Shown here one piece after another: positions 1 through 38,033 of a stretch of 64,000 nt of DNA (position 1 is its first letter; every line of letters starts with the position of its first letter). Source of the stretch: Flavihumibacter solisilvae (GTDB taxonomy: Bacteria > Bacteroidota > Bacteroidia > Chitinophagales > Chitinophagaceae); NCBI RefSeq assembly GCF_000814475.1, contig NZ_JSVC01000021.1, positions 1 to 64,000 on the forward strand, in the 5' to 3' direction. A program made the translations under genes and the position numbers. The notes under the pieces were generated by a model, which did no database searches, was not told the DNA's origin, and saw only the letters and a list, made by a program, of their open reading frames with translations.

Positions 1-62
1 ACGGGTGGGACCCGACGGGTGGGACCCGACGGGTGGGACCCGACGGGTGGGACCCGACGGGT
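1..62. repeat. 14-bp tandem palindromic repeat array (REP-like)
   Basis: Four full copies of the 11-mer ACCCGACGGGT (10-20, 24-34, 38-48, 52-62), plus a partial one cut by the window edge, are separated by GGG for a strict 14-bp period. Each 11-mer is an inverted repeat around a central A, and each junction CGGGT-GGG-ACCCG is also a 5-bp hairpin. The same 11-mer flanks the transposase gene near 25 kb, so this is a dispersed family. The array lies just beyond the terminator of the minus-strand metalloprotease gene. Its true length is unknown because the window starts inside it. Confidence 0.9.
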
Positions 63-22238: not shown

Positions 22239-24761
22239 TTACTGTCCAACTAAAAATACTGCATTGCACAAAAGTAACTTTCCGTTTTCCCAGAAACTGC
22301 GGAAAACCGGGTTATCGCCAAGATATACTACCTGGCCGCGTCCGATTTCCTGCACACCCATGAGCATACCATCTTTCAGTTTATCTTTCAGGCGGCTGCC
22401 GGTGAATCCACTGATATAATTGTCTTTTTTAATAACTCCGACATTCCAACCGTTTTCTTTTATGAACTCATAGATGTTTGTGTCCTGCTTGAGTGTGTAA
22501 TAAAACTCGGGGAACCCGAAACCCAGTGGATGCGTGTTATCAAGTTCCACCCGGAAGATAGATCCGGGCATGCTTGTCATGAGCCAATCGCGTTCGCGGT
22601 TCTCATACTTGCGGAGTAAAGCGTAATCCACCTTCTTCGCTTCGTCTTTATCATCGTCTTTCTTATCGTCGTCCTTTTGCTTTATTCCCCAGTCGGCCTT
22701 GGCCATCTGGGCTACAGCGCTTTCGATTGAAATGATCTTTCCTCCCCTTCGAACCCAGCTCTTCAACTCTTCATTTGTTTCTTTCTTTCCGAAGAAGTCA
22801 TAATAACCGTCGGGCAGGATAAGCACAGTATATGAATTCATTCCCTCGTTCAGGAAATCGGCCGCACTCATTATTGTAATGGGATAACCAAGCTGCTGAT
22901 CGAAGAAATGCCAGATCTCTCCCATGCCGAGGGACGAGATATTTTCCCCTGCAAGCATGGCTACCTTCGGCGCGTTGATCGTGCGCACCCGATCAGAGCC
23001 GAAATCGAATCCCTTATCGACAAAACCCGAGGTGATCGGGTAAACTTTTGTGCCTGTATTTTTTGCGGCTTCTTCAAGAACCTGTTGTACGGGCTTTGAT
23101 GCATTGGATGCTTTCGTAATCAGCAGGGTTCCCTTTTCAAAACTTTCCGTTCCACTGTTGAATGGCTGTTCAGCATACCGTACCCGAATTCCTTTCTGCA
23201 ACATTGAAGACAACAGGCGGGCGCTGTTGAGTCCATCCCATTTTATTGCATAGGCATAAGCATTGGCCATTGCTGCCTGCGATGCCGTTTGGGCAGGAGG
23301 CGTTTTTGATGTACCGGTAATATATTGCTGTACCCCATAAGTTTTTAGTCCATATGCAAACGGAACGGCCCAGGCAGTGATGTCATAAGTTGCCGAGTCG
23401 CTGAGTTGAGAAGTCCTTTCAAACAGCACCTTAATCAGGTTTCCTTTTGGCTGGTTGATATTGATAACGATATCACCCTGAGTTGTAGAGAAGGATTCCT
23501 GCTTCCCGGTGAAATAGTTCAATCCTTTAAGGGAAGCGGTATTTGCGTACGACCAGTCGATGTCATTCCTGTCGAGCAGTTCCTGCAGCCTGGTCATGCG
23601 GTCCGTGCTGTCGTTCCTGACAACCCATGATTTGAACTCACCCGGCGGATGGTTGATCACATTGTTGAAATAACTCCGGAATTCACGTACAACGCGGGAG
23701 GCGTTAAGCGAAGTAATCTCGACTGTGCTGATGCCAGTGGTGAAATGATGCAGGGCACGTTCGCGGAGCGTGAGGGTATCACCGTCTTCATTAATGATGC
23801 CGAGCCCGGCGCGGATTCCTCCCTGTTCATAGGTCATACCAATCGAACCATTGTATGTCGGATAGGTATCCCCGTAAGACGGATAGAAAAGGTCAAACCT
23901 TTCCTTGGTGAAATACAGCCAGCCATTCTGGTCGAAGTATTTTGCGTGGTTCTTCCCGATCATGATCTGGAAGTCACGCTGCCATTTACTGATTACCTCG
24001 TGGAAAGGTTCCGCGGCAGGCGCGAAGTAATAGGGCTCATTGAAACCTTGTTCATGAAAGTCGACATGAACCTGTGGCAGCCATTGGTTGTATTTCTTCA
24101 CCCTTGACCTGCTTTCGACCTGCGATTGCCAGGCCCAGTCACGGTTTAGATCAAAATTATAGTGATTGCTCCTGCCACCGGGCCAGGGTTCGCGGTGCTC
24201 ACGCGCAAGTGGCTGTGGATTTACATTTTTGCCGATCATGGTCGTGTACCAGTTTACATAACGGTCACGCCCATCCGGGTTCAGGCAGGGATCGATTAGT
24301 ACTACCGTATTCTTCAGCCATTCCTTTGCGCGCTGACCTGATGGATTAACCAGTTCGAACAGCGTCATCATTGCCGCTTCCGAAGAAGATGTTTCATTGC
24401 CGTGAACGTTGTAGCTGAGCCATACTATTGCAGGTGCATTCTCGTTCGGCGCCATTTTATCCTTGGCCGAGTTTGCGAGACGGAGGTTATTCAACCGGAT
24501 CTGTTCAATCGAGGCAAGGTTTTCCGCAGATGCGATTGTCGCGAGGAGAAGAGGCCTGCCTTCCGTTGATTCGCCATATTGCTCCACCTTCACCTGGTTT
24601 GGCACCTGTTGAGCAACATGCTGAAAATATTGTACGATCCTGTAATGGGGGGTATACCGTGTTCCCACTTCGTAGCCCAGGAACTGTTCAGGGGATTGCA
24701 GTTGTGCCATTGCCGAAACTGAGACAATAGCTGATCCAAGCAACAATAGAAATCGTTTCAT
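22239..24761 (-). CDS. M14 family zinc carboxypeptidase, secreted
   Basis: The 840-aa product has a signal peptide (about 1-19, ending AMA-Q). The M14 catalytic domain shows the zinc-binding NVHGNETSSSE (HxxE), PCLNPDGRDRYV, NFDLNRDW and a later HVDFHEQG. The C-terminal half resembles glutamine-amidotransferase-like folds and includes an Asp/Lys-rich loop. M14 enzymes trim C-terminal residues or peptidoglycan peptides; the substrate here is unknown. It is the first gene of the six-gene operon. Its upstream region contains the inverted pair of REP-like palindromes. Confidence 0.9.
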   Translation of the reverse strand: MKRFLLLLGSAIVSVSAMAQLQSPEQFLGYEVGTRYTPHYRIVQYFQHVAQQVPNQVKVEQYGESTEGRPLLLATIASAENLASIEQIRLNNLRLANSAKDKMAPNENAPAIVWLSYNVHGNETSSSEAAMMTLFELVNPSGQRAKEWLKNTVVLIDPCLNPDGRDRYVNWYTTMIGKNVNPQPLAREHREPWPGGRSNHYNFDLNRDWAWQSQVESRSRVKKYNQWLPQVHVDFHEQGFNEPYYFAPAAEPFHEVISKWQRDFQIMIGKNHAKYFDQNGWLYFTKERFDLFYPSYGDTYPTYNGSIGMTYEQGGIRAGLGIINEDGDTLTLRERALHHFTTGISTVEITSLNASRVVREFRSYFNNVINHPPGEFKSWVVRNDSTDRMTRLQELLDRNDIDWSYANTASLKGLNYFTGKQESFSTTQGDIVININQPKGNLIKVLFERTSQLSDSATYDITAWAVPFAYGLKTYGVQQYITGTSKTPPAQTASQAAMANAYAYAIKWDGLNSARLLSSMLQKGIRVRYAEQPFNSGTESFEKGTLLITKASNASKPVQQVLEEAAKNTGTKVYPITSGFVDKGFDFGSDRVRTINAPKVAMLAGENISSLGMGEIWHFFDQQLGYPITIMSAADFLNEGMNSYTVLILPDGYYDFFGKKETNEELKSWVRRGGKIISIESAVAQMAKADWGIKQKDDDKKDDDKDEAKKVDYALLRKYENRERDWLMTSMPGSIFRVELDNTHPLGFGFPEFYYTLKQDTNIYEFIKENGWNVGVIKKDNYISGFTGSRLKDKLKDGMLMGVQEIGRGQVVYLGDNPVFRSFWENGKLLLCNAVFLVGQ

Positions 24762-24805: not shown

Positions 24806-24833
24806 ACCCGTCGGGTGCCACCCGACGGGTGGC
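24806..24833. repeat. REP-like inverted palindrome pair upstream of the RAYT gene
   Basis: ACCCGTCGGGT (24806-24816) and ACCCGACGGGT (24820-24830) are reverse complements of each other, separated by GCC. The second copy extends to a perfect 8-bp stem, GCCACCCG-A-CGGGTGGC (24817-24833). This inverted arrangement resembles paired REPs (BIMEs). It lies between the divergent starts of the M14 operon and the transposase gene. Confidence 0.9.
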
Positions 24834-24924
24834 GAACAATTGTTAACATCTGTTGAAAAACGGGAAGAAAATCGGGTTATTAAACGCTGGCAGGGGCAAC
24901 CGAAGATTGCAACTTTTGTCAAAA

Positions 24925-25500
24925 ATGGGTACCAAGTTTGCTAAAATCGTTCCAGGTCACTTCTTTCACATCTGCAACAGGGCAGTAGGCAGTGAGCCTT
25001 TGTTCCTGCTTCCCGCAGACTATTATTCCTTCCTTGACCGGATTGGGAAGTTTGTTATTCCCGCTGCAGAACTGCATGCGTATTGCCTAATGTCCAATCA
25101 CTATCATCTCCTGGTGAGAGTCAGGGATGAGGTTAAGCCTGAATTTTTCATTAGCCAGATGAATCGATTACAAAGTACATATGCCAAAAAATTCAATTTC
25201 ATCAATGAAAGAATTGGTGGCCTGTTTATGCGGCCATTCAAACGGGTCATGATTGAAACAGAGGCTCACCTCATTACAACCTTCTGGTATATTCATCGAA
25301 ACCCTCTTCACCACTTAATCACGAGTGACTGGGAAAGTTGGCCATACTCATCATATAGTCATTACCTGAGGGAAGAACCAGGCATATTGACTACAAATTT
25401 CTTTAAAGATCTTTTCGGCGGCGCTGAACAGATCAGGCAGCATCATCGTCTTCAGGCCGACTATTACTGGCGCGAGCACAGATCACTTACACTTGAATAA
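24925..25500 (+). CDS. REP-associated tyrosine transposase (RAYT, Y1_Tnp / IS200-like fold)
   Basis: The product is about 191 aa. An N-terminal GHFFHICNRAVGSEPLF matches the RAYT start. The HUH metal site is in LMSNHYHLLV (H59, H61). A likely catalytic tyrosine is Y86 in RLQSTYAKKFN, followed by GGLFMRPFKR and YIHRNP. RAYTs are domesticated single-strand transposases that cut and join REP palindromes and do not move as ordinary IS elements. The frame opens upstream at a TTG (24853), but ATG 24925 begins the family domain. Palindromic repeats of one type flank the gene on both sides. Confidence 0.9.
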   Translation: MGTKFAKIVPGHFFHICNRAVGSEPLFLLPADYYSFLDRIGKFVIPAAELHAYCLMSNHYHLLVRVRDEVKPEFFISQMNRLQSTYAKKFNFINERIGGLFMRPFKRVMIETEAHLITTFWYIHRNPLHHLITSDWESWPYSSYSHYLREEPGILTTNFFKDLFGGAEQIRQHHRLQADYYWREHRSLTLE

Positions 25501-25542
25501 TAAACTCCGTTTTCCGCATTTTGGGTGTATTAACCTTTTTTT

Positions 25543-25581
25543 ACCCGACGGGTGAGACCCGACGGGTGAGACCCGACGGGT
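25543..25581. repeat. REP-like triple palindrome downstream of the RAYT gene
   Basis: Three copies of ACCCGACGGGT (25543-25553, 25557-25567, 25571-25581) are joined by GAG for a 14-bp period, the same as the array at the window start except for the linker triplet. They end 38 bp before the ggt start codon. Confidence 0.9.
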
Positions 25582-25619: not shown

Positions 25620-27326
25620 ATGAAATCAAGTTTATTGCTGGGGGTGGCCCTGTGGGCATTTGTTGCGGCGGCGGCGCAGTCGCCGGTTGTGAAGCTGGAT
25701 CCGTACAATTATGCCAGCCAAAAGAGTTTTACGGGGAGGAATGGTGCGGTGGTTTCAGCGCATCCACTGGCAAGCCAGGCAGGTGTGAGCGTATTAAAAA
25801 AGGGCGGGAATGCTATTGATGCCGCTATCGCGACACAATTGGCACTGGCTGTAGTATACCCGGCAGCAGGAAATATCGGCGGCGGCGGATTTTTCGTGGC
25901 CCATCTCAGTACGGGTGAGAACATCACCATTGATTTCAGGGAGAAGGCTCCGCAAAAGGGTCATCGCGACATGTATCTTGATCCGGCAGGGAATGCCGTG
26001 CTGGATAAAAGCCAGAATGGTCACCTTGCGGCAGGCGTTCCCGGCGCAGTAGCCGGTATCTTCAAGGCACTGAAATATGCGAAGCTGCCTTTGTCGCAAC
26101 TCATTGCGCCTGCCATTGAACTGGCGGAAAAAGGTTTCGTAATTACGCCGTCGGAAGCAGAAAGTCTCAATGACGACCGGCCCAACTTCATTAAATACAA
26201 TACGCGCCCGGTTGCGTTTGTGCGTGACCGGCCATGGCGAGGTGGAGATACGCTGTTCCAGCCGGAACTGGCGCAAACGCTTAAACGAATCAGTGAAAAA
26301 GGGCAGGCTGGTTTTTATAAAGGCAAAACGGCAAAGCTGCTGGTGAAAGAAATGAAACGGGGTGGAGGAATTATCAGCAGGAAAGACCTAAGCCAGTATG
26401 ACGCTAAGGAAAGAACTCCAAGTGAATTTACATATAAGGGGCACCAGATCATTACAATGCCATTGCCAAGCAGCGGTGGCGTATTATTGCCGATGATGCT
26501 GAAGATGACGGAAAGGTTCCCGATCGCTGAGTATGGGTTTCATTCGCTGAAGGCAGTGCAACTGATGACAGAGATCGAAAGGCTTGCTTACGCCGACCGG
26601 GCAAAGTATCTCGGGGATCCCGATTTTTATAAGGTACCGGTAAAGGAACTGACCAGTGAGGCTTATATCAGCAGCCGTCTTCGGTTATACCGCCCCGATA
26701 TGGCAGGCAACAGCCAGGAGATCCAGTCAGGCATAGTGGCCAAAGAGAGTGAAGAAACCACGCACCTCAGTGTCGCAGATGGCCAGGGAAATGCTGTGTC
26801 CATTACTACAACCCTGAACGGTGGTTACGGGTGTTATACAGTTGTCGGCGGTGCGGGTTTCCTGCTAAATAATGAAATGGACGATTTCAGCGTAAAGCCC
26901 GGGGTACCGAATATGTATGGAGCCGTAGGCGGTGAAGCCAATGCCATTGTGCCCGGGAAAAGGATGCTCAGTTCCATGACGCCTACGATCGTGCTAAGGA
27001 ACGGCAAGCCCTACATTGTTGCCGGAACACCGGGTGGCACTACGATTACTACGTCTGTATACCAGACCATCGTAAATATGCTGGATTTCAATATGGGTCC
27101 GGACGATGCGGTAAACAAGCCGAAATTTCACATGCAGTGGCTGCCTGATCTTATTTCAGTGGAGAACGATTTCCCGGAAGAAACGCTGGAAGGCCTGAGG
27201 AAAATGGGATATACCATTAAGAAAAGGGGCCAGATCGGAAGAACCGAAGTAATCCGGATCCTGGCTGACGGCACAATAGAAGCGGTCGGCGACAAAAGAG
27301 GTGACGACGCTGCCGAAGGTTACTGA
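25620..27326 (+). CDS. ggt: Gamma-glutamyltransferase
   Basis: The 568-aa exported enzyme has a signal peptide (about 1-19). It hydrolyses or transfers gamma-glutamyl groups from glutathione and related peptides. It is made as a proenzyme that cleaves itself before the nucleophile Thr. That residue is T380 in EETTHLSVADGQGNAVSITTTLN. Later elements GFLLNNEMDDF and the glycine-rich GTPGGTTI of the substrate pocket are present. Length is normal. The leader contains the triple REP-like palindrome. A second, more divergent family member lies at 36-38 kb. Confidence 0.93.
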   Translation: MKSSLLLGVALWAFVAAAAQSPVVKLDPYNYASQKSFTGRNGAVVSAHPLASQAGVSVLKKGGNAIDAAIATQLALAVVYPAAGNIGGGGFFVAHLSTGENITIDFREKAPQKGHRDMYLDPAGNAVLDKSQNGHLAAGVPGAVAGIFKALKYAKLPLSQLIAPAIELAEKGFVITPSEAESLNDDRPNFIKYNTRPVAFVRDRPWRGGDTLFQPELAQTLKRISEKGQAGFYKGKTAKLLVKEMKRGGGIISRKDLSQYDAKERTPSEFTYKGHQIITMPLPSSGGVLLPMMLKMTERFPIAEYGFHSLKAVQLMTEIERLAYADRAKYLGDPDFYKVPVKELTSEAYISSRLRLYRPDMAGNSQEIQSGIVAKESEETTHLSVADGQGNAVSITTTLNGGYGCYTVVGGAGFLLNNEMDDFSVKPGVPNMYGAVGGEANAIVPGKRMLSSMTPTIVLRNGKPYIVAGTPGGTTITTSVYQTIVNMLDFNMGPDDAVNKPKFHMQWLPDLISVENDFPEETLEGLRKMGYTIKKRGQIGRTEVIRILADGTIEAVGDKRGDDAAEGY

Positions 27327-36203: not shown

Positions 36204-38033
36204 TTACCACCCAATCCCGTAATCTTCACCATGATTGCTGGATCCACCCCAGAAGCTATTATGTTGCCAGTCGAACCAAATTGCGTTTATGGGGCCGGAT
36301 GTCCGGTCTTCGAAACGTAGCTTGTATCCTCTTTGGATCAGCTCTTTCCTGATCCAGGCCGGAGTTTCGGATTGCAGAAGCAGCTGGCCTGGTTTAGGCT
36401 TGCGGTCCTGGTCACCCAACGACAGCCAAAATTGGTATGTATTGAAATTTGGTGCTTCAGCAGCTTCCTGCACGTTCATTCCAAATTCAACCATATTCAG
36501 GAAGAATTGCAACAGGTTCTGGTCCTGCGTGTCTCCTCCCTGAACTGCAAAGGATAAAAAGGGCTTCCCGTCCTTTAATGCAAGTGTCGGGGTAAGGGTC
36601 ACACGCGGTCTCTTGCCGGGAGCAACAACATTGTATGGGTTAAGTGATGAATCGCAAACGAAGCTTTGCATCCGCTGGCTCATACCTATCCCCGTTCTAC
36701 CGGCGATGCATGCCGGCACCCAGCCACCGCTTGGTGTAATGGATACCACCCAACCGTCTTTGTCCGCCGCTTCCACTGAAGTTGTGCCACGCCATACCTG
36801 GTCGAGATACTGCTGATCAATGGAAGCAGTAGAGTTTTCCTTTGCAATGCGTTTTTCGAGATCCCGGATAAAAGGATTACTGCCGTTCTCAAATGGATAC
36901 GGATCACCAGGAAGAACGGCCGGATCATTTTTATCAGGATTCATGGTTTCAGCTCTCTTCTTTGCATATTCTTTTGAAAGCAATCCCCGGATCGGCTCTG
37001 CAGGAGGAAAGTAGGGGTCGCCGTAATAAAAGTCGCGATCAGCAAACGCCATATTCATTGCCTGGTAAACCGTATGAATATATCTCGCAGAATTATATCC
37101 CATGCTTTTCAGGTCAAACTGTTCCAGGATATTCAGGGCCTGCAGCATCATCGGGCCTTGTGTCCACTGTGAAAGCTTATACACTTCGATGCCTTTATAA
37201 TTGACGTGAAGTGGCTCTTCAATACGCACTTTCCAGTCGGCAAGATCCTTAGTTGTTATAAGTCCACCCTGCTCCTGGCAACCCCTGACAAATTCGGCAG
37301 CGATATCTCCTTTATAAAACCGGTCATTTGCCGCATAAATTGCTTCCTTACGGCTTTTGCCCTTTTTCAATGCCTCTCTTTCAGTTTCAACAAGCTTCTT
37401 AAGTGTTGCCAGCAGTTCTGCCTGGCGAAAGATCTCACCAGCGGTGGGCGCTTCCCTTTTTTCTCCAGGGTGTGTGAGGAAAACGGACCTGGAATATGGC
37501 CATTCTTTAATTCGGTTCTTTTCGCGTTCGATGCTATTTGCCGTCTGCGCTTCAATGGGATAGCCGTCGGCAAGTTCCATTGCGGGCCTCAGTACTTCTT
37601 CCAGGCTCATGGTCCCGTATTCAGCAAGCATGGTACAGAGTCCACCCGGGGTACCCGGAGTAACTGCAGCCAGTGCACCATATTCAGGAGGAAACTTCAT
37701 TCCTTTCGAAGTGAAAAATTCAGGAGTCGCCCCGGTAGGTGCAACACCCAATGCATTTATCCCGATTACTTTCTTCAGTTTAGGGTGATAAATGAGTGCC
37801 TGTGTTTCGCCTCCCCAGCTAAGCACATCCCACATGGTGCAGGTGGCAGCGAGCATCGCGCAGGAAGCATCAACTGCATTACCACCTTTCTGAAAAATGG
37901 CAGCACCGGCAGTTGCGGCCAACGGCTTGCCTGTAATTGCCATCCAATGTCTGCCATGTAACACCGGCTTTTGAGTGGATTGCGCAGACAGAATCAACGG
38001 TAGACAAACCAGGATTGTAAACAAATGCTTCAT
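36204..38033 (-). CDS. Gamma-glutamyltransferase family protein, secreted
   Basis: The 609-aa product has a signal peptide (about 1-17). The Ntn-hydrolase core of the family is present: an N-terminal GNAVDASCAMLAATCT segment, the nucleophile T417 in GTTSVEAADKDGWVVSITPS, and VQGGDTQDQNLLQFF near the C terminus. It is longer than, and diverges from, the ggt at 25.6 kb. In particular the segment after the nucleophile lacks the usual TTTLNxxFG-type text. Substrate could be something other than glutathione. It is transcribed toward the response regulator gene. Confidence 0.85.
   Translation of the reverse strand: MKHLFTILVCLPLILSAQSTQKPVLHGRHWMAITGKPLAATAGAAIFQKGGNAVDASCAMLAATCTMWDVLSWGGETQALIYHPKLKKVIGINALGVAPTGATPEFFTSKGMKFPPEYGALAAVTPGTPGGLCTMLAEYGTMSLEEVLRPAMELADGYPIEAQTANSIEREKNRIKEWPYSRSVFLTHPGEKREAPTAGEIFRQAELLATLKKLVETEREALKKGKSRKEAIYAANDRFYKGDIAAEFVRGCQEQGGLITTKDLADWKVRIEEPLHVNYKGIEVYKLSQWTQGPMMLQALNILEQFDLKSMGYNSARYIHTVYQAMNMAFADRDFYYGDPYFPPAEPIRGLLSKEYAKKRAETMNPDKNDPAVLPGDPYPFENGSNPFIRDLEKRIAKENSTASIDQQYLDQVWRGTTSVEAADKDGWVVSITPSGGWVPACIAGRTGIGMSQRMQSFVCDSSLNPYNVVAPGKRPRVTLTPTLALKDGKPFLSFAVQGGDTQDQNLLQFFLNMVEFGMNVQEAAEAPNFNTYQFWLSLGDQDRKPKPGQLLLQSETPAWIRKELIQRGYKLRFEDRTSGPINAIWFDWQHNSFWGGSSNHGEDYGIGW

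Follow-up and report, generated by a model that had tools for sequence, protein, structure and literature searches.

The 64-kb window (the whole stretch of DNA that was analysed) carries a transposase-like gene bracketed by short repeats, and the two together are best read as a REPtron, that is, a vertically inherited and apparently non-mobile RAYT flanked by a short repeat that it maintains; a probability of about 0.8 is given to this reading. The first-pass annotation had interpreted the layout in the same way, and its interpretation survived both the count of the repeat in its own genome and the comparison with relatives. The features concerned are:

10 to 62, forward strand: four-unit direct array with linker GGG, at the contig start and running off the contig
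22239 to 24761, reverse strand: M14 zinc carboxypeptidase gene, the left neighbour of the slot in 15 of 15 genus genomes searched
24806 to 24830, no strand assigned: upstream REP, the inverted pair ACCCGTCGGGT-GCC-ACCCGACGGGT, an 11-bp hairpin with a 3-nt loop
24925 to 25500, forward strand: RAYT (TnpA-REP-like Y1 transposase) gene, 191 aa from ATG
25099 to 25107, forward strand: codons of the HUH motif H59-Y60-H61, invariant in a seven-sequence alignment
25288 to 25290, forward strand: codon of the putative catalytic tyrosine Y122 (WYIHRNP), assigned by alignment, invariant in the seven sequences and aligned to the Y..NP motif of 4ER8
25521 to 25535, forward strand: upstream box TTGGGTGTATTAACC of the direct array, from the box scan of direct arrays in this genome
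25543 to 25581, forward strand: downstream REP array of three direct 11-bp units with linker GAG
25620 to 27326, forward strand: gamma-glutamyltransferase gene, the right neighbour of the slot in 15 of 15 genus genomes searched

REP-like copies do bracket the transposase as had been claimed, with an inverted pair upstream (ACCCGTCGGGT at 24806-24816 and ACCCGACGGGT at 24820-24830, coordinates verified) and a direct triple downstream (25543-25553, 25557-25567, and 25571-25581; period 14 bp). An alternative in-frame TTG start of the RAYT gene is possible at 24853. The window contained 18 matches to the unit (both strands, at most one mismatch), compared to a mean of 0.78 and a largest value of 4 in 100 shuffles. 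The contig of the window (C14) begins, and contig C15 (at the end of locus L188) ends, inside REP arrays with GGG linkers; long arrays thus seem to break the assembly, and the true number of units is probably higher. A second, distant gamma-glutamyltransferase gene (PF01019) is located at 36204-38033, approximately 9 kb from the one adjacent to the RAYT gene.

With the RAYT of the genome that holds the window (G000), the Pfam model Y1_Tnp scored 24.4 bits against a cut-off of 23, this being the only Y1_Tnp match in the genome, and the NCBIfam model NF047646 (REP-associated transposase) scored 45 bits, under its cut-off of 80. A search of PDB sequences with the single RAYT sequence returned no match; a profile of seven orthologues returned one, the TnpA-REP of E. 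coli (4ER8; E 0.028), in which WYIHRNP was aligned with the tyrosine motif (Y..NP) of the latter. The best structural match of an AlphaFold model of the protein (mean pLDDT 88.1) was again 4ER8, a RAYT bound to a REP hairpin (E 1e-7; TM 0.71 by target length), followed mostly by the ISDra2 and IS608 transposases; tRNA-His guanylyltransferases, found from rank 5 down, were taken to reflect a common general fold. The catalytic residues initially proposed were H59, H61, and Y86. Both histidines (NHYH) were invariant among the seven aligned sequences, but Y86 was rejected; its column is Tyr in four of the seven and His in three, and hence Y122, invariant in all, is the catalytic candidate instead. 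The eighth orthologue, the stop-carrying gene of G013, has WYAHRNP at the tyrosine motif. Between G004 and G008, the RAYT gene gave a dN/dS of 0.07 (dS 1.5), and it is therefore under purifying selection in this pair. Alignment and model together point to the HUH/Y1 catalytic core of a RAYT/TnpA-REP.

The pattern ACCCGWCGGGT was found at 100 sites in the 5.41-Mb G000 genome, where approximately two were expected from the base composition of the window, and the same pattern read backwards, used as a control, was found at none. A chance origin of the repeats was rejected on these counts, and the over-representation of the 11-mer anticipated by the first-pass annotation amounted to approximately 50-fold. 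Grouped at 60 bp, the 100 sites formed 46 arrays, of which 36 were direct or single and 10 held both orientations; the longest run comprised six units. As had also been predicted, the copies largely form 14-bp arrays in this genome and are mostly intergenic (38 of the 46 arrays, in fetched regions that are 87% coding according to the same purpose-made ORF caller). The other eight arrays lie inside predicted genes, but for three of them the ORF scores were low (8, 13, and 15), and these three ORFs may be spurious. The heuristic caller did not find the RAYT gene (it left a gap next to the L186 array), so it may miss real genes and the intergenic calls are rough. The repeat thus has two properties of the REPs of a REPtron, being mostly intergenic, as counted in G000, and capable of forming hairpins.

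The first-pass annotation described the substrate as an 11-bp palindrome with 3-nt linkers. The 11-bp units and the 14-bp spacing were confirmed, but the linker is better regarded as a loop: two facing 11-mers, folded as single-stranded DNA, form a stem of 11-14 bp with the 3-nt linker as its loop, and hence the REP is best viewed as two units spanning 25-31 nt. The single 11-mer is an imperfect palindrome in G004, G008, and G014. Hairpin folds were computed as DNA for six stretches, among which the upstream REP of G000 gave an 11-bp hairpin (-14.3 kcal/mol; z -5.25), a facing pair of G004 a 14-bp hairpin (-17.7 kcal/mol; z -6.54), and the direct array of G000 smaller hairpins (z -3.7). The real substrate is probably the two-unit REP of 25-31 nt and not the 11-bp palindrome. 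The feet of the arrays are rich in pyrimidines; in G000, 60 of 74 read TTC, CTC, or TTT. Of 430 feet, only 5 had the tetranucleotide GT[AG]G, found at the foot of canonical GTAG REPs, at a distance of 6 nt or less (five genomes; arrays of at least two units with enough flank), and guide recognition, if any, would therefore be unlike that of E. coli.

Many direct arrays of G000 are preceded by a box with a consensus near GGTGTTTTCACC, situated 8-22 nt before the first unit in 22 of 35 arrays (approximately 0.35 expected by chance). A box was called where its leave-one-out score lay above the 99% level of random positions, with one direct array that has no upstream sequence left out; above the same level, it was found beside 1 of 21 G004 arrays scanned and 2 of the 10 inverted arrays of G000. 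From the box, many direct arrays are likely to be copies of a single composite element. Followed up as an independent repeat, the exact pattern SGTKTTTTCACC gave 14 matches against 7 for the control; 4 of the 14 were at arrays and the other 10 had no palindrome within the next 75 nt.

The slot between the M14 peptidase and gamma-glutamyltransferase genes is syntenic in all 15 genomes of the genus that were searched, and it holds a RAYT gene in eight of them (G000, G003, G004, G008, G010, G011, G013, and G014), in one orientation throughout and with the repeat on both sides in each. The bracketing unit was ACCCGWCGGGT in G000, G003, G010, and G011, with differing linkers, ACCCGSCGGGT in G013, ACCCGTCCGGT in G004, and ACCCGACCGGT in G008 and G014, and the type found at the RAYT gene was the type found genome-wide. 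The slot of G012 retains a 55-residue RAYT remnant. At the position of REP-RAYT-REP in G004 and G008, G006 has exactly one clean REP, and G005 also has one, the second arm of which is degenerate. These three slots were counted as footprints of a lost REPtron. No intact repeat unit was found in the slot of G001, G002, G007, or G009. The RAYT tree and a host tree built from two neighbouring host proteins agreed at their supported nodes, with weak deep nodes in both (34-48 and 43-62, respectively). A larger RAYT tree (43 sequences picked from 110 loci, with G013 excluded as too short) joined G011 to G014, G004, and G008 at 97, a grouping absent from the host tree, the deep part of which is weak. 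With the exception of this G011 node, the RAYT gene appears to be single-copy, vertically inherited, and non-mobile as a unit. An ordinary insertion sequence of the IS200/IS605 type, with subterminal hairpins and transposing as a unit, would account for the HUH/Y1 fold, which is akin to that of IS608 and ISDra2; such an element is nevertheless very improbable in view of the single Y1_Tnp match in G000, the identical address and orientation of the gene in eight genomes, and the dispersal of the repeats without it.

More distant RAYT-like genes (approximately 27-36% identity) were recognized in G001, G002, G007, and G012, the second match in G012 being the remnant, and G011 and G014 carry additional ones; G005, G006, and G009 had no RAYT-like match at all. 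Other repeats of 16-39 nt were common to both flanks of eight distant RAYT-like loci of the genus, family, and order (L040, L042, L043, L056, L058, L059, L060, and L061), as observed without a chance control, and these are possibly further GTAG-free REP families.

The abundance of the repeat was compared using one general paired pattern applied to all 15 genomes, for which a control pattern gave no pairs in any. With a slot RAYT, 14-bp pairs numbered 50 in G000, 95 in G003, 67 in G004, 82 in G008, 46 in G010, 130 in G011, 42 in G013, and 144 in G014; without the slot gene, which is the sense of RAYT absence here, they numbered 0 in G001, 3 in G002, 18 in G005, 5 in G006, 0 in G007, 0 in G009, and 1 in G012 (G006 and G010, 55 and 75% complete, respectively, are undercounted). 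The two sets of eight and seven genomes do not overlap (exact probability 1.6e-4, phylogeny ignored). The first-pass annotation expected the repeat to be present only in relatives carrying the RAYT, and this was correct insofar as abundance follows the gene (42-144 pairs with it), but the seven genomes without it still have 0-18 pairs. The same contrast was seen between neighbours on the host tree, over which RAYT losses are scattered: G014 with 144 pairs against G002 with 3, and G013 with 42 against G012 with 1 (both nodes 100); G004 with 67 and G008 with 82 against G005 with 18 and G006 with 5 (node 100); and G003 with 95 and G010 with 46 against G009 with 0 (node 91). This repeat family is not numerous in G001, G002, G007, and G012, which carry the distant RAYT-like genes. 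The general repeat pattern was searched for in 394 genomes sampled from the family, and the 384 that lie outside the genus had no match (the other 10 are genus members); a narrower pattern, searched for in 99 genomes, was missing from all 84 relatives outside the genus (the other 15 are genus members). In all eight close orthologues, a repeat that also occurs throughout the genome stands on either side of the RAYT gene, as in a REPtron.

The RAYT gene of G013 (L034) contains one in-frame TGA, suggestive of a recent loss of function, yet 42 REP pairs persist in this genome; this persistence was counted against the maintenance of the repeat by RAYT. A further explanation would have the REPs be host elements, such as terminators, mRNA stabilisers, or protein sites, with the RAYT as a bystander. 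The intergenic position of 38 of the 46 arrays and the retention of at least 21 of 38 addresses between species are in keeping with such a role, but several lineages without the slot RAYT have few or no REPs, the repeat type at the RAYT gene matches that found genome-wide, and the arrays of G000 have no fixed relation to the orientation of neighbouring genes (+- 8, -- 8, -+ 6, ++ 4, and contig edge 3). It is consequently regarded as quite improbable.

Evidence of how the REP population changes was provided by G004 and G008, the units of which are alike except for the centre base, T in G004 and A in G008. Centre A is likely ancestral as it is found in G005, G006, G008, and G014. The sample was confined to arrays of at least two units, with single-unit arrays dropped, and the G008 arrays were found via a pattern requiring a GGC or GCC linker. 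Among the 38 G004 arrays listed, there were 84 T and 5 A units, with 35 arrays all T, two all A, and one mixed; one of the all-A arrays is common to G008 and intact, and the other is interrupted (L274). The 48 G008 arrays comprised 131 A units, no T unit of that type, and a single ACCCGTCGGGT-type unit. At least 21 addresses were common to the two genomes as judged by their flanks (one pair per G004 array, no G008 array used twice, and a match needed on both flanks), with a mean flank identity of 86%; two of the 21 are the RAYT's own brackets. At 20 of these 21 addresses, among the G004 arrays listed, every unit had switched with both arms changed together (compensated), which indicates that the old REPs were replaced and not left. 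The number or orientation of units also differed at 16 of the 21. At 17 addresses, the flank alignments on either side ended no more than 10 nt from the array, and at the other four one side stopped 14-45 nt off. The replaced tract would be approximately as short as the array; a process specific to REPs would explain this better than ordinary homologous recombination. These alignments are most simply read as showing stable addresses for many REPs, the contents of which have been overwritten.

Comparisons with G005, which lacks the RAYT gene, indicated that its units are mostly unswitched (29 A, 3 T, and 1 G in 15 arrays, one of them mixed). Four of six sites common to G004 and G005 were switched, one had A in both, and one had T in both; of six common to G008 and G005, five had A in both and one had A versus T. 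The sole wholly T-type array of G005 (L242) adjoins a 600-nt right flank 99.8% identical to that of G004 (L281), suggesting recent recombination or exchange of that stretch between the two. A second pair, G003 and G010 (56 and 37 arrays of at least two units, respectively), yielded 11 G010 arrays that match G003 on both flanks; read by eye, eight had different linkers, one was identical, one kept GGC with one unit changed, and one was ambiguous between two G003 arrays. The flank identities here are only 68-88%, and hence this case is weaker than that of G004 and G008. Empty sites included one clear presence/absence of a REP (an array in G005, no REP in G008), and at three further addresses the counterpart in the other genome is a different or unrelated sequence. 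Where the sister has a REP, L293 (G008) and L238 (G005) hold a different hairpin-like sequence, the ends of which resemble CACTCCGCC / GGCGGAGTG; one exact copy was found in the loci scanned.

Two other accounts of the switch have to be weighed. With spread and decay following an orthoswitch (Nunvar et al. 2013), a new variant would spread from the RAYT to new sites as the old REPs decay. The two wholly old-type arrays and the mixed one among the 38 G004 arrays listed could be survivors of such a process, the interrupted L274 is as this model expects, and only 21 of the 38 have a partner among the G008 arrays fetched. However, 20 of the 21 common addresses hold the new type where the sister has the old, and spread and decay, already disfavoured, is judged improbable. 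Alternatively, the centre A could have mutated to T address by address, the second arm being fixed by hairpin-templated copying and selection favouring units that match a changed RAYT. Such a history suits types that differ at the centre base alone and the occurrence of one mixed array each in G004 and G005, but it requires the same change at approximately 20 sites and leaves the differences in unit number or orientation at 16 of 21 common sites unexplained; it is considered unlikely. With somewhat better than even confidence, it is instead proposed that REP populations are kept by a RAYT that overwrites conserved addresses with its current variant, in tracts of approximately 25-39 bp that resemble the arrays in length. 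The RAYT is the obvious candidate for the agent of this replacement in place, and that it would be needed is suggested mainly by the largely unswitched repeats of G005, from which the gene is missing.

According to the proposed mechanism, the RAYT would bind the single-stranded hairpin of two facing 11-mers during replication, Y122 would cut near the pyrimidine-rich foot of the hairpin, and the enzyme would rejoin a copy of the REP at another site, usually one that already holds a REP. If a new variant arose at the RAYT locus or close to it, it could then overwrite the old population in place. Without a RAYT, the REPs would no longer be renewed and would erode; loss of the gene itself may occur by REP-to-REP deletion.

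The system resembles the REPtrons of the gammaproteobacteria (E. coli, Stenotrophomonas, and Pseudomonas), which, as far as the available text of the sources goes, share the HUH/Y1 core with REPs on both sides, dispersed intergenic REPs, inverted pairs, and orthologous RAYTs with different REP classes (PMC3686654, PMC8266576, PMC6006769). It differs from them in the absence of a GTAG foot and in its modular 11-bp units at 14-bp spacing, and the RAYTs of the genus have LF[MIL][RS]PF in place of the IWQPRF of 4ER8. Inverted REP doublets that form hairpins and are tied to a RAYT were described in the accessible portion of the work on REPINs (Bertels and Rainey 2011, PMC3116915); unlike these, the doublet here measures 25 nt with a 3-nt loop, and arrays may also be direct or odd-numbered. 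In the part of PMC3686654 that was available, the flanking of orthologous RAYTs by different REP classes is termed an orthoswitch, the decay of REPs is predicted after RAYT loss, and the original REPs are expected to stay and decay after an orthoswitch, with the conclusions allowing for partial replacement by new variants. The pattern of loss in the genus fits this account, as does the presence of different REP classes at the same RAYT locus in sister lineages. The near-complete switch in place does not fit the model as given there, the old REPs having been replaced at 20 of the 21 addresses compared, among the arrays listed.

It had been stated that examples from the Bacteroidota have little description, which was nearly right; the accessible text of PMC6006769 already includes Bacteroidetes genes of TnpA-Y1 subclass 2.6 that have, by manual inspection, atypical flanking structures without GT[AG]G and with copies elsewhere. 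The present RAYT shares these features of flanking repeats with subclass 2.6 / RAYT group 5 (mostly Bacteroidetes), and resembles it in length (191 aa against a published median of 179) and in the YIHxNP tyrosine motif, within what that source provides (PMC6006769). Compared by motifs and not by repeats, it departs from the subclass 2.6 description available there, with NHYH, LFMRPF, YIHRNP, and a HuH-Y spacing of 61 in place of NH[LIV]H, WQ, YIH[QN]NP, and approximately 82 (PMC6006769). In a tree without labelled subclass references, the RAYT was nested (97) among RAYT-like proteins of the same order and one Cryomorphaceae protein, several of which have YIHxNP and a longer HuH-Y spacing. A literature search, with most subscription papers outside its coverage, did not turn up any description of REPs being replaced at orthologous addresses, or any paper combining REP palindromes with Chitinophaga.

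The 15 congeneric genomes constitute a natural experiment in which the gene of one slot is intact, interrupted, present as a remnant, or missing, with REP numbers changing accordingly. Their REP family lacks GTAG and is built from a simple modular unit, the unit type has changed by one centre base among close relatives, and at least 21 aligned before-and-after addresses are available. The recognition by RAYTs of REPs without GTAG, and the spread of REPs into new sites versus the overwriting of old ones, are thereby made testable. A gene-conversion proposal for REPs was reportedly made by Higgins et al. in 1988. If overwriting at conserved addresses is correct, the REPs of a whole genome would switch in concert through site-specific conversion, and the old question of whether REPs evolve by gene conversion would be answered.
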